Numbered from the stretch's first letter, positions 32,282-36,067 are shown. The stretch: DNA of 64,000 nt from Salinilacihabitans rarus (GCF_024296665.1 NZ_CP100762.1:3038001-3102000); one strand, 5' to 3'. The notes: generated from the letters alone by a model not told the origin. Made by a program: numbers and translations.

Positions 32282-34336
32282 GTGAAACGTACTACCGAGC
32301 CACACGACGGGGACCGGACCGTTCGATCGCTGTATCGGCGACGGGTTCTCCGGATCGCCGCCTCCGGAACCGCGATTGCAGGGTTGGGAGCGACTCCGGT
32401 GAGCGCGGACGAGGGGTTCGTCGAGATCGTCGGGACCGATCCGAGCACCTATCCGGAGATCGACGTGAACGTGCGCGTCGATTCGGACGCAGGACGTGAC
32501 GGGGAACTCACGGCAGACGATTTCGAGGTGTACGAAGACGGCGAACGGGTGGAGATCATCGACTTCGAGTACTCCGCGTCGTCGCTCGACCTCGTCTTCG
32601 TCTTCGACGACTCGGGTAGCATGGGTAACGAGATTTCGTCGATGAAACGGAAGGTCAAGGGGTTGACCGAGGACATCGACGAGGCGGGAATCGACGCGCG
32701 GTACGGACTCGTCTCGTTTCGTGACGACGTCGACACCGACCTGACGTTCACCGACGACGCCGATGCGTTGAAAGACGCGGTCGATTCGCTGGAGGCGTAC
32801 GGCGGCGGTGACTTCCCCGAGGACAACTTCGACGCAATCGTGACGGCACTCGAGGACGACTACCGCGACGACGCGCAGAAAATCGTCGTCGACATCACCG
32901 ACGCGACGTCTCACTACGACGGGGACGACAGCGGATTCTCGGAATACACGCTCTCGGACGTCGCCACGGCCCTGAACGAACGGGGGGCGAGTTTTGTCGC
33001 CGTCTCGCCCGGGTACGACGACCCCGACGCCAGCCTGAAGGTCCTCGCCGAGGAGACCGGCGGCCTGTGGATCGACATCGGCGACGCCGACTTCGATCGG
33101 ATTCTCGATCGGATCTCCGATCTCGTCGTCGAACTGTACGTTCTCCGATACGAGTCGGACACCGAACCGGGCGGGGTCGGCGAGGTCGGCGTCGAAGTCG
33201 AGGATCCGGATCTCGGCACCGACTCGGCCTCCGGGACGGTCTCCGTTCCGGAGGATACAGAGCCGACGGTGCCGTCGCGCTTCACCGAACTCGCGTCCGA
33301 GAAGTCGGCTCTCGCCGAGCAGGTCGACGAGAACAGCCTCGGCATCCTCGACGATACCGGACTGGTGTCGCCGGTGATCGACGCGCTGCGGTCCGCCGTG
33401 GAGTCGGGCGACGTGGCGGGCGAGACGGCGACAGCCTCTCTCGAGCGGCTTCGGGCCGGCGAGCAGGTGACGGACGCAGTACTGGCCGGCGCGGGCCCGG
33501 GTTCGTCCGAGTACAACACGGCCGACACGAACCTCGCGAAGGCGACCGCGAGGTCTGCGGTCAATCCGATGATCGAACTCCTTTTCGCGGGAATCTCCGT
33601 CGTGCGCGCCGCGCGCCATCTCCCCTTCGTCGGAGGCGCGGCGAAGCGCGCCGCACGGTACATCGCGGACCTCGTCGCCGACGCGGCCGGGAAGATTAGT
33701 TCTCGTCTCGAACGCATCATCCGCGCCCAGGGCGAGGACGCCGGCTTTGCGCTCCTCGGCGAGGTCGAGAGCCGATCCAAGAGCGCCGGGAAGCCGATCG
33801 CGGAGGACGAGTTTCGGGAGGCCCGGTCGGAACAGTCCGACGTTCTCGTCGAGGACAACGTCGACGTCCTGTTCGAGGATTACCTGTTCAACGAGGAATA
33901 CGACTGGTTCGGGAACCCGACCGAACCCCTCGACGAGTCGCTGTACACGCTCGTAGAGGGCGTAGACCCCGACACCGACTCCCCGTCACCGACGGGCGAC
34001 GACGAGGCCGCGCTCTCCGCGGCCGAAACCGCCCTCGAAGACGTCAACGACATCCAACGGACCACCGTCGAGGAAGTGTCGCAGACCGAGAGCATACTGA
34101 AGGCGGTCGGAGTGCTCTCGGGGGTCCTCGCGGCCGCGGCCCTGGTGGCGGGCGTTACGGGGATCGGGTCGCCGGTCGGAGTGGTGCTTGGAGCCGCCTC
34201 CGCTCTCCTCGGAATCGGCGTCTCCGTGCCCCTGACGATGGCCAACTGGGGGCTCGGCGTCAACGGAATGCTCGGAACCCGGTACAGACACCAGACCGCC
34301 GTCGACGAGATCCTTCATCCCGAGGGGGGTACCTGA
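32282..34336 (+). CDS. Tat-exported VWA domain protein with C-terminal membrane hairpin
   Basis: A 684-residue protein from GTG 32282. The Tat signal has RRRVLR at 19-24, a hydrophobic stretch and a likely cut after PVSA (residue 42). A von Willebrand A domain spans about 102-275 with an intact MIDAS motif DDSGS (109-113). A helical middle part follows, with an amphipathic basic segment (about 430-480), and two hydrophobic helices near the end (about 605-665) probably anchor it in the membrane. It is the first gene of an unrecognised group; the next ATG is one base after its stop. The preceding 143 bases are A+T-rich, with TTATAC at 32263. Confidence 0.8.
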   Translation: MKRTTEPHDGDRTVRSLYRRRVLRIAASGTAIAGLGATPVSADEGFVEIVGTDPSTYPEIDVNVRVDSDAGRDGELTADDFEVYEDGERVEIIDFEYSASSLDLVFVFDDSGSMGNEISSMKRKVKGLTEDIDEAGIDARYGLVSFRDDVDTDLTFTDDADALKDAVDSLEAYGGGDFPEDNFDAIVTALEDDYRDDAQKIVVDITDATSHYDGDDSGFSEYTLSDVATALNERGASFVAVSPGYDDPDASLKVLAEETGGLWIDIGDADFDRILDRISDLVVELYVLRYESDTEPGGVGEVGVEVEDPDLGTDSASGTVSVPEDTEPTVPSRFTELASEKSALAEQVDENSLGILDDTGLVSPVIDALRSAVESGDVAGETATASLERLRAGEQVTDAVLAGAGPGSSEYNTADTNLAKATARSAVNPMIELLFAGISVVRAARHLPFVGGAAKRAARYIADLVADAAGKISSRLERIIRAQGEDAGFALLGEVESRSKSAGKPIAEDEFREARSEQSDVLVEDNVDVLFEDYLFNEEYDWFGNPTEPLDESLYTLVEGVDPDTDSPSPTGDDEAALSAAETALEDVNDIQRTTVEEVSQTESILKAVGVLSGVLAAAALVAGVTGIGSPVGVVLGAASALLGIGVSVPLTMANWGLGVNGMLGTRYRHQTAVDEILHPEGGT

Positions 34337-34337
34337 A

Positions 34338-35432
34338 ATGTCGGCGAACGTCGTGGCGGTGCTCGACAGCATGGCGGGCGCGCTCGAATCGGAGGAGTAC
34401 ACCCGGTTCCGAGAGGAGCTTTCGGAACTGCTGGCCTCGTACGACGAGGGCCGGCCCGCCGAACGCGCCTTCGCCGAGCGAGCCAAAGCCATCTCGCAGG
34501 ACAGGGCCGCAGACAGGTTCGCCGCCGACCCCGACGACCTCGACTCCGTCGACCGCTACCTCTTGGAACTGGAGACGACGAACGTCAACCGCGCTGGGGC
34601 ACTGATCGGTCTCGGCGCGGGCGTGGCATCCGCCGAGACCGTCGACGACGTCGCGGAGTTCGTAACCGAACTGAAAGCCCAGGAGGAGAACCTCGCGGCA
34701 GCGCGACGTACCGCGACCTCGACGGTCGAGGCAGCTACGCTCCCCGCGCTGCCGCTCGTATACGGTATCACCGTGGACGATGACGACGATCCGCTCCCGG
34801 TCGGTGCCACGACGACGCTCTCGATCACGGTCGGTAACGCGGGTGACGACGCAGCCACCGACGTCTCGGTGGCCATCGAGACCGGTGACGACGTTACGGT
34901 CGCCGACTCGGAAAGAACGGTGTCGCTCGATCCCGGCGTGACCGAGCAGGTCTCCGCCGCGATGAGCGTCGAGGAGGCGGGAGACGTCCGTATTCGGGCG
35001 GTGCTGAGCTACGACGGGGATGAGTTCGTCGAAACGGAGTCCCTCGAGGTCCTCTCCGTCGAGGGATTCCTCGAACGCGCCGGCCGACGACTGGAGACCC
35101 TCACCGAGCGCATTGAGGGGGCGGACGCTTCGCGGGGCGCACAGCGCCGACTCCTGTCGTCCTTGGCTGCTGCGGGTGCCAGTCTCGAGCGGGCGCTGGA
35201 GGCGTGGAGTGCGGGCGATCGGCGGCGCACCGACGACCACCTCGCGACGGCGACGAAGCAACTCGGCGCGTTCCTCAACAAACTCGCCGCAGCCGAGGCT
35301 GGCCGGGGAACCGGGAACGGACCCGGCGGTGGGGCGACGGTCGAGTTCTCCGCGTGGCACCGGACGAGCTTCGAGGTCGTCGCCACGGAGGTCATCGACC
35401 ACCTGTCGCGCGTCCGTTCGGCCCGGCTGTAG
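34338..35432 (+). CDS. unknown protein with CARDB-like beta-sandwich domain
   Basis: A 364-residue acidic protein starting one base after the VWA gene stop. Residues 1-130 are helical; about 135-235 form a CARDB-like adhesion sandwich (TTTLSITVGNAGDDAATDVSV...VTEQVSAAMSVEEAGD); the remainder is again helical with a glycine-rich break (about 325-335). There is no signal peptide or membrane helix, which is odd for a CARDB domain, usually extracellular. Translational coupling to the VWA gene suggests the two proteins work together. No named family is recognised. Confidence 0.65.
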   Translation: MSANVVAVLDSMAGALESEEYTRFREELSELLASYDEGRPAERAFAERAKAISQDRAADRFAADPDDLDSVDRYLLELETTNVNRAGALIGLGAGVASAETVDDVAEFVTELKAQEENLAAARRTATSTVEAATLPALPLVYGITVDDDDDPLPVGATTTLSITVGNAGDDAATDVSVAIETGDDVTVADSERTVSLDPGVTEQVSAAMSVEEAGDVRIRAVLSYDGDEFVETESLEVLSVEGFLERAGRRLETLTERIEGADASRGAQRRLLSSLAAAGASLERALEAWSAGDRRRTDDHLATATKQLGAFLNKLAAAEAGRGTGNGPGGGATVEFSAWHRTSFEVVATEVIDHLSRVRSARL

Positions 35433-35438
35433 GACTAC

Positions 35439-35446
35439 TTTTATTA
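35439..35446 (+). promoter_or_regulatory. TATA box of the small membrane gene pair
   Basis: TTTTATTA is centred 27 bases before ATG 35469, so the last two genes of the VWA locus probably have their own leaderless promoter just after the stop of the CARDB gene. Confidence 0.55.
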
Positions 35447-35468
35447 TCTGCAACTAACATCCTAACTT

Positions 35469-35828
35469 ATGGTCGTGTCGACGGTATCTCTGGTTGGGTT
35501 GGTGTTCACCGTCCTCGTGACCGCGACCGTGTACCTCCTGGGCGTTAGACTGGGCGAGACCCCCGGAACCGCACGACCGGCCCGCGCGTTTCGTCTGGGC
35601 TTTCCCCTCGCTGGCGGCCTGATCGTTGTCGCGCTCACGGCCGTGGTCTACGCCGCCGAACACCGCTTTCCGCCGACGGCGGGCGAGACCCCGCTCGACC
35701 CGGGCTTGCTACTCGACCTCGGCCTCGCGGGGACGGTGCTCGGCTTCCTCGTGGCGGTCGCGCTGCTCGCGTGGCTCGCTCTGGCGTCGTCCCGCGACCA
35801 CGAACGCGCGACCGGGGAGGGCCGATGA
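35469..35828 (+). CDS. three-helix membrane protein, unknown function
   Basis: A 119-residue protein with three hydrophobic helices (about 4-24, 44-64, 80-104) and a short charged tail. No family is recognised. Its stop overlaps the next start (ATGA). Position directly behind the VWA and CARDB genes suggests a membrane component of the same locus, but a separate promoter makes that an inference. Confidence 0.6.
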   Translation: MVVSTVSLVGLVFTVLVTATVYLLGVRLGETPGTARPARAFRLGFPLAGGLIVVALTAVVYAAEHRFPPTAGETPLDPGLLLDLGLAGTVLGFLVAVALLAWLALASSRDHERATGEGR

Positions 35829-36067
35829 CCGGGGCCGTACCGTCGGTCCTCGATCGGGTGCTCGGACTCCTCGCGCTCGCGTGCCTGGGCGTCGGCGTTG
35901 TCGGGCTGGTACTGCTGCCGACGGCGCACGTCAGCCCGGACCACTCCCTGCTCGGCGTGCTCGGCTACAGCGGGTCGGTGTGGCGACTCCGCGAACTGAC
36001 GGCCGCCGGCTGGCTGGTGGGACTCGGCCTCCTGGCCCTGCTCCGCGGGCTGGATCGGCGCCCGTAG
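35825..36067 (+). CDS. two-to-three-helix membrane protein, unknown function
   Basis: An 80-residue protein from ATG 35825, overlapping the previous gene by 4 bases. Hydrophobic stretches at about 10-30 and 55-72 flank a short loop (PTAHVSPDHSLLG). No family is recognised. It ends the VWA locus, 27 bases before the convergent sugar dehydrogenase gene. Confidence 0.6.
   Translation: MTGAVPSVLDRVLGLLALACLGVGVVGLVLLPTAHVSPDHSLLGVLGYSGSVWRLRELTAAGWLVGLGLLALLRGLDRRP

Follow-up and report, generated by a model that had tools for sequence, protein, structure and literature searches.

An obligate two-gene haloarchaeal family of a Tat-signal protein with an exchangeable head and a signal-less CARDB-type partner

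The window, the whole stretch of 64,000 nucleotides analysed here, comes from Salinilacihabitans rarus and spans positions 3038001-3102000 of NZ_CP100762.1, a haloarchaeal chromosome of 3.62 Mb. Four of its genes (A, B, C and D; all four open reading frames are present) had been described from the sequence as one unrecognised four-gene locus, a description referred to below as the original prediction. Genes A and B are a real, unnamed and obligate two-gene haloarchaeal family, in which a protein with a twin-arginine translocation (Tat) signal is followed by a partner without a signal peptide. Genes C and D are a unit unrelated to A-B and merely adjacent to it.

The linkage of A and B was followed through 391 haloarchaeal genomes of one class (denoted by G numbers) with a profile built from five B proteins. 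About 30 places match this profile beyond the generic CARDB domain, and reading the DNA around the matches identifies 30 intact B genes, spread over 28 of the 391 genomes. Every one of the 30 comes directly after a same-strand gene of A type, with a gap of -17 to +31 nucleotides, which bears out the proposed coupling. The original view of the pair as unrecognised and envelope-related is supported as well. In the window, a single base separates the stop of A (34336) from the ATG of B (34338), as first described. Gene A is split across frames in two of the 30 loci (G343 and G161), and the complete A proteins number 28. Separate searches for relatives of A and of B both led to one place in G013, and the loci of G058, G042 and G015 have the same arrangement as the window. 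An independent profile of the conserved C-terminal domain of A (A-CT) gives 23 strong matches in 21 of the 391 genomes, all at A-B loci. Two B copies have no intact A, and both are truncated or interrupted (G207, L082:7050-8135; G138, L085:7478-8038); these remnants look like traces of loss of the module.

Across a phylum sample of 393 genomes, strong profile matches are confined to the same order, although such profiles are scored on only the best five candidates per genome and absence is no proof. A plasmid collection searched with B gives no match, viral contigs scanned with B and A-CT contain no relatives, and no publication on the pair turned up in a literature search. A-B matched no named system and no toxin or defence system.

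Protein A comprises a signal, a variable head and A-CT. All 28 complete A proteins have the arginine pair of an RRxxL-type Tat signal, and the window protein has the expected twin-arginine N-terminus, YRRRVLRIAASG...PVSA followed by DE. Its head is a VWA domain at residues 103-260. The intact metal ion-dependent adhesion site (MIDAS) reported for it is present and can be refined to the integrin-beta type, with D109-x-S111-x-S113, GGGDFPEDNFDAI (DFPE) with E180, and DITD with D207, and not the usual threonine form; the residue roles are assigned by analogy with integrin MIDAS sites. A complete VWA metal site of this type occurs in the window and in G015, and is not found family-wide. VWA heads are present in the window, G015 and G124, laminin-G/ConA-like heads in G013 and weakly in G058 and G224, and PQQ beta-propellers in G283, G251, G189 and G088. 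Other heads consist of FG-GAP (G141) or DUF285 repeats (G283), and further members have PKD stalks or CarboxypepD_reg domains. The heads are often borne on PKD stalks.

A-CT makes up the remaining 300-400 residues, has a helical look, and belongs to no Pfam family. The domain is otherwise acidic, but a locally basic segment comes after each of its two hydrophobic stretches, one mid-domain and one near the C-terminus. The segment near the C-terminus has a mean hydropathy of at least 1.6 in 24 of the 28 proteins, and would be either a single helix or a hairpin. The C-terminal membrane hairpin first described for the window protein corresponds to hydrophobic segments at residues 605-653. Comparison of A-CT with solved structures by sequence gives nothing convincing, and its single-sequence structure model (mean predicted local distance difference test score, pLDDT, 44) is not usable.

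The window head resembles VWA adhesins, integrin beta I-like domains and the acidobacterial VWFA family TIGR03436, with matches to PF00092, PF00362 and TIGR03436 (55.6 bits, under the cut-off of 81.25). The likeness is confined to the head, whereas A-CT and B have no counterpart in these proteins. Full-length A as a contig-scan query mostly finds VWA-head matches in Acidobacteria, and is misleading because the head does not define the family. A locus in G009 was rejected as a member, as the head search had found there an unrelated Tat protein with a VWA domain and no B. This locus (L041:7251-14087) is a cluster of Tat-signal proteins with similar N-termini, which have a TasA/camelysin-like look, and one of them has a VWA related to the window head.

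Heads are swapped between otherwise similar proteins. G141 and one G283 locus (G283c) have A-CT domains that are 83% identical and B proteins that are 51% identical, with unrelated FG-GAP and PQQ propeller heads. The A-CT domains of the window and G273 are 45% identical, and their heads are again unrelated. The reverse is seen between the window and G015, whose heads are 56% identical but whose A-CT domains are just 18% identical, no more than those of unrelated members. Over 19 pairs, A-CT similarity predicts B similarity (Mantel r 0.83, p 2e-4), and holding head similarity constant leaves this correlation as it was (partial r 0.83). The N-terminal domain of B alone gives the same picture (Mantel r 0.84), whereas the heads hardly predict B (partial r 0.14). 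Co-divergence is no proof of binding, as co-inherited linked genes also correlate, yet the heads, encoded in one gene with A-CT, do not track B. A-CT is probably the binding site of B, because the two diverge together and the heads do not follow B; contact between A-CT and the N-terminal domain of B is the simplest reading. VWA domains had been noted to pair usually with their partners through the MIDAS. Here the VWA and its MIDAS are neither the defining part nor, probably, the one that binds B, since other members have unrelated domains in its place and A-CT and B are nonetheless kept together.

Protein B has a helical N-terminal domain, a CARDB/immunoglobulin (Ig)-like sandwich and an exchangeable tail throughout the family. 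The tails, assigned by eye, are helical in 12, of docking type in 16, and hydrophobic or PGF-like in 2 of the 30 proteins. The CARDB-like domain and the missing signal peptide of the window B agree with the first description: PF07705 is matched, and no start codon lies between the upstream in-frame stop and the ATG. An in-frame stop lies 1-34 codons upstream in 27 of the 30 B genes, and 21 have no upstream start whatever, so a classical signal peptide on any B is not likely. By sequence, the sole match of B to a solved structure is the CARDB domain 2l0d (5e-5). The single-sequence model of B has a mean pLDDT of 60, with the sandwich and C-terminal helices better and the N-terminal domain poor, and Foldseek with this model finds generic Ig-like matches only. 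The helical tail was considered as a FIMAH domain and rejected, as the match is sub-threshold and equally present in control genomes.

Several tails point to a place for B outside the cell. The G141 protein ends in Dockerin_1 (PF00404, E 2.5e-8) and is the only B with a dockerin; the window B is negative. The G124 protein has its tail module in common with a 1325-residue protein (z 16) that bears a TIGR04207 surface-glycoprotein signal (1.8e-11), and with a third nearby protein (shuffle z 16-24 over these comparisons); the module may dock to the surface layer (S-layer). In the G283 cluster, further proteins terminate in related tails, and a Tat signal is present on at least one of them. One tail type is accompanied in nine genomes by a gene after B whose product has an apparent signal peptide, and several of these products have Ig/DUF11/cadherin-like domains and a PGF-CTERM-like end. 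The nine cases represent about four independent lineages, since five of the nine genomes are close relatives.

Haloarchaea export unusually many proteins folded through the Tat system. Protein A would leave folded through the Tat translocase and stay at the membrane by the hydrophobic segments of A-CT. Its head, which has been exchanged between lineages, would face outward for recognition or adhesion; in the window it is an integrin-beta-like VWA with a metal site. Protein B would bind A-CT in the cytoplasm and leave with A, and outside, its CARDB domain and tail would attach the complex to other envelope proteins. For a protein that is signal-less, outside, and always found with a Tat-exported partner, hitch-hiker export is the known mechanism that fits. 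The preferred reading of A-B is such a Tat-exported surface-display complex with B hitch-hiking on A, and we regard its chances as even. The tail and composition of the window B, the topology of the mid-domain helix of A and the weak structure models keep the assessment at this level.

Hitch-hiker export is established for Escherichia coli hydrogenase-2 (HybO/HybC) and for formate dehydrogenases (PMC10924467). By its own account, the search in that study did not directly identify tail-anchored proteins whose lack of a signal is due to exit with a Tat partner (PMC10924467). A-B resembles these enzymes in the twin-arginine signal on one subunit, the linked signal-less partner, and a candidate C-terminal hydrophobic anchor on one subunit, but has interchangeable adhesive or recognition heads, and its co-export is proposed by analogy. 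PaoABC of E. coli is a three-part hitch-hiker in which signal-less partners are exported with a Tat-signal subunit (PMC4273604). A-B likewise has a partner without a signal alongside a Tat-signal subunit; PaoABC, however, is an aldehyde oxidoreductase, a redox complex, and no sequence relation is expected. The dockerin of G141, the other tails that look like docking repeats and the signal-bearing surface proteins encoded after B at some loci are reminiscent of dockerin/cohesin assembly in cellulosomes, though no cohesin domain was found in the A-B neighbours scanned and the window B has no dockerin. Genes for haloarchaeal S-layer and PGF-CTERM (ArtA) proteins are found next to several A-B loci, and in G124 the product of one of them has the tail of B. 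In contrast to these proteins, A carries a Tat signal (predicted export) and has no recognised PGF-CTERM; a sub-threshold one is present in a single B (G222).

Some points weigh against co-export. The window B tail is helical, not docking, and the protein is cytoplasmic-like in composition (probability of being secreted 0.06, from a weak classifier with a balanced accuracy of 0.76). The same classifier also scores the window A-CT low (0.19), and so is hardly informative on helical domains. The hydrophobic segment near the C-terminus is not strong in 4 of the 28 A proteins. Known hitch-hikers are redox proteins with cofactors, and family scans find no cofactor-binding family in A or B. The mid-domain helix of A-CT with its basic flank is also compatible with an A that spans the membrane and offers B a loop on the cytoplasmic side. 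On the hitch-hiker reading the window B would lie outside the cell, and a cytoplasmic B is the main rival to this placement. Such a B would be the adaptor of a transmembrane receptor: the mid-domain helix and the C-terminal segments of A would both span the membrane, the 150-200 residues between them would lie inside and bind B, and B would relay ligand binding by the head. The two conserved hydrophobic segments with their basic stretches, the missing signal peptide and the cytoplasmic-like composition of window-type B proteins all suit this arrangement. It is nevertheless unlikely, given that the mid-domain helix is just moderately hydrophobic (family mean about 1.3), that B has no enzymatic or signalling domain, and that 16 of the 30 B proteins have docking tails, one a Pfam dockerin and one common to a signal-bearing surface protein.

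The obligate pairing, the co-divergence with A-CT and the lack of a signal on B would also be expected if B were a chaperone dedicated to the export of A, bound to A-CT inside the cell to cover its hydrophobic helices and let go once A leaves through Tat. A chaperone needs neither a CARDB domain nor a docking tail, and ends such as the hydrophobic or PGF-like ones of the G017 and G222 proteins are odd for a soluble cytosolic protein, which makes this role improbable. The layout of A, a variable head before a conserved hydrophobic helical domain, is similar to that of pore-forming bacteriocins, and together with the patchy distribution and atypical base composition it could suggest antagonism, with A as a secreted toxin (exchangeable receptor-binding head, membrane-inserting helical C-terminus) and B as its immunity protein. 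This seems very improbable, as neither protein matches a toxin or defence family, B is not a membrane protein, and surface-docking tails and surface-protein gene neighbours are unsuited to an immunity protein. The layout of polymorphic toxins (conserved N-terminal delivery, variable C-terminal toxin) is not found either; A is reversed, with a variable N-terminal head and a conserved C-terminus. The suggestion of a defence-like machine is likewise not supported, as a PADLOC scan gives only a marginal match to hydrophobic residues 599-649 of A (E 0.014).

The G124 locus (L144:11431-19555) lies beside an S-layer-glycoprotein-like gene with PGF-CTERM and the gene of the 1325-residue surface protein. 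In G283 (L143:4881-13154), a Tat protein with GLUG repeats adjoins A-B and overlaps by 4 nucleotides a signal-less CARDB-type protein, which has the same docking tail and lacks the helical N-terminal domain; this pair may be exported on the same principle but with a different C-terminal domain. At L039:9587-11086 and L079:7897-9216, the product of the third gene, after B, begins with an apparent signal peptide and has DUF11-like and PKD domains, a transmembrane segment and, at its C-terminus, a DUF7577-like zinc ribbon; it might connect the surface complex with the cytoplasm.

The G+C content at third codon positions (GC3) is 0.836 in A and 0.832 in B, clearly atypical against the mean of 0.938 (standard deviation 0.027) of 53 window genes. 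The laxer third positions and acquired-looking composition of the original prediction are thus confirmed, and recent acquisition of A-B is plausible. An empty-site check for insertion found no informative site, as the genes flanking A-B are not neighbours in other genera.

Genes C and D (35469-36067) encode two small membrane proteins of 119 and 80 amino acids and have a similarly low GC3 (0.84 and 0.89). The two genes overlap by ATGA at 35825-35828, as first described. A T-rich stretch (acttttattatc) about 25-30 nucleotides before C is consistent with separate transcription and is a putative promoter. The pair recurs in G039 (51-54% identical to the window pair) and G322 (loci of the recurring genes include L042:7487-8088 and L167), C alone is recognised in G281, and none of these lies beside A-B. 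The four-gene machine reduces to two genes and an unrelated pair because C-D occurs apart from A-B. Genes scattered and unlinked in other genomes had been named as a result against the four-gene locus, and this is the situation of C-D, while A and B remain linked.

Table 1. Features of genes A and B, in window positions
Feature	Position	Strand	Evidence
Gene A, Tat-exported protein, GTG start, 684 amino acids (signal, VWA head, conserved C-terminal domain)	32282..34336	+	
Twin-arginine signal peptide of A, YRRRVLRI..., likely cut after PVSA (residue 42; cleavage site by eye)	32282..32407	+	
VWA head of A, integrin-beta-type MIDAS (D109, S111, S113, E180, D207)	32588..33061	+	PF00092 1.6e-15, PF00362 4.2e-6
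A-CT, helical conserved C-terminal domain, residues 320-684, without Pfam family	33239..34333	+	Alignment, class-wide search, co-divergence with B
Mid-domain hydrophobic helix of A, residues 426-444, moderately hydrophobic, then basic flank	33557..33613	+	
C-terminal hydrophobic segments of A, residues 605-653, candidate tail anchor	34094..34240	+	
Gene B, partner without signal, 364 amino acids	34338..35432	+	
N-terminal helical domain of B	34338..34742	+	Co-divergence with A-CT (Mantel r 0.84); model from a single sequence, of low confidence in this domain
CARDB/Ig-like sandwich of B, residues 140-238	34755..35051	+	PF07705 1.3e-5; strands in model
C-terminal helical tail of B (docking-type or hydrophobic tails in its place in other members)	35058..35420	+	

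To our knowledge, surface delivery of signal-less subunits has been studied almost only in redox enzymes. That A-B is the first non-redox family of Tat hitch-hikers, a general-purpose archaeal display chassis with swappable heads and a signal-less docking partner, is a tentative proposal with somewhat less than even chances. If true, A-B would offer a testable case of non-redox co-export, in which A-CT and B are kept while propellers, lectin-like folds, VWA domains and repeat heads are exchanged. More partners of this kind could then be sought among signal-less genes that overlap Tat genes, and the family would supply candidate adhesins or receptors for the surface of archaeal cells. Co-export would also explain proteins that are extracellular in domain and cytoplasmic in signal.

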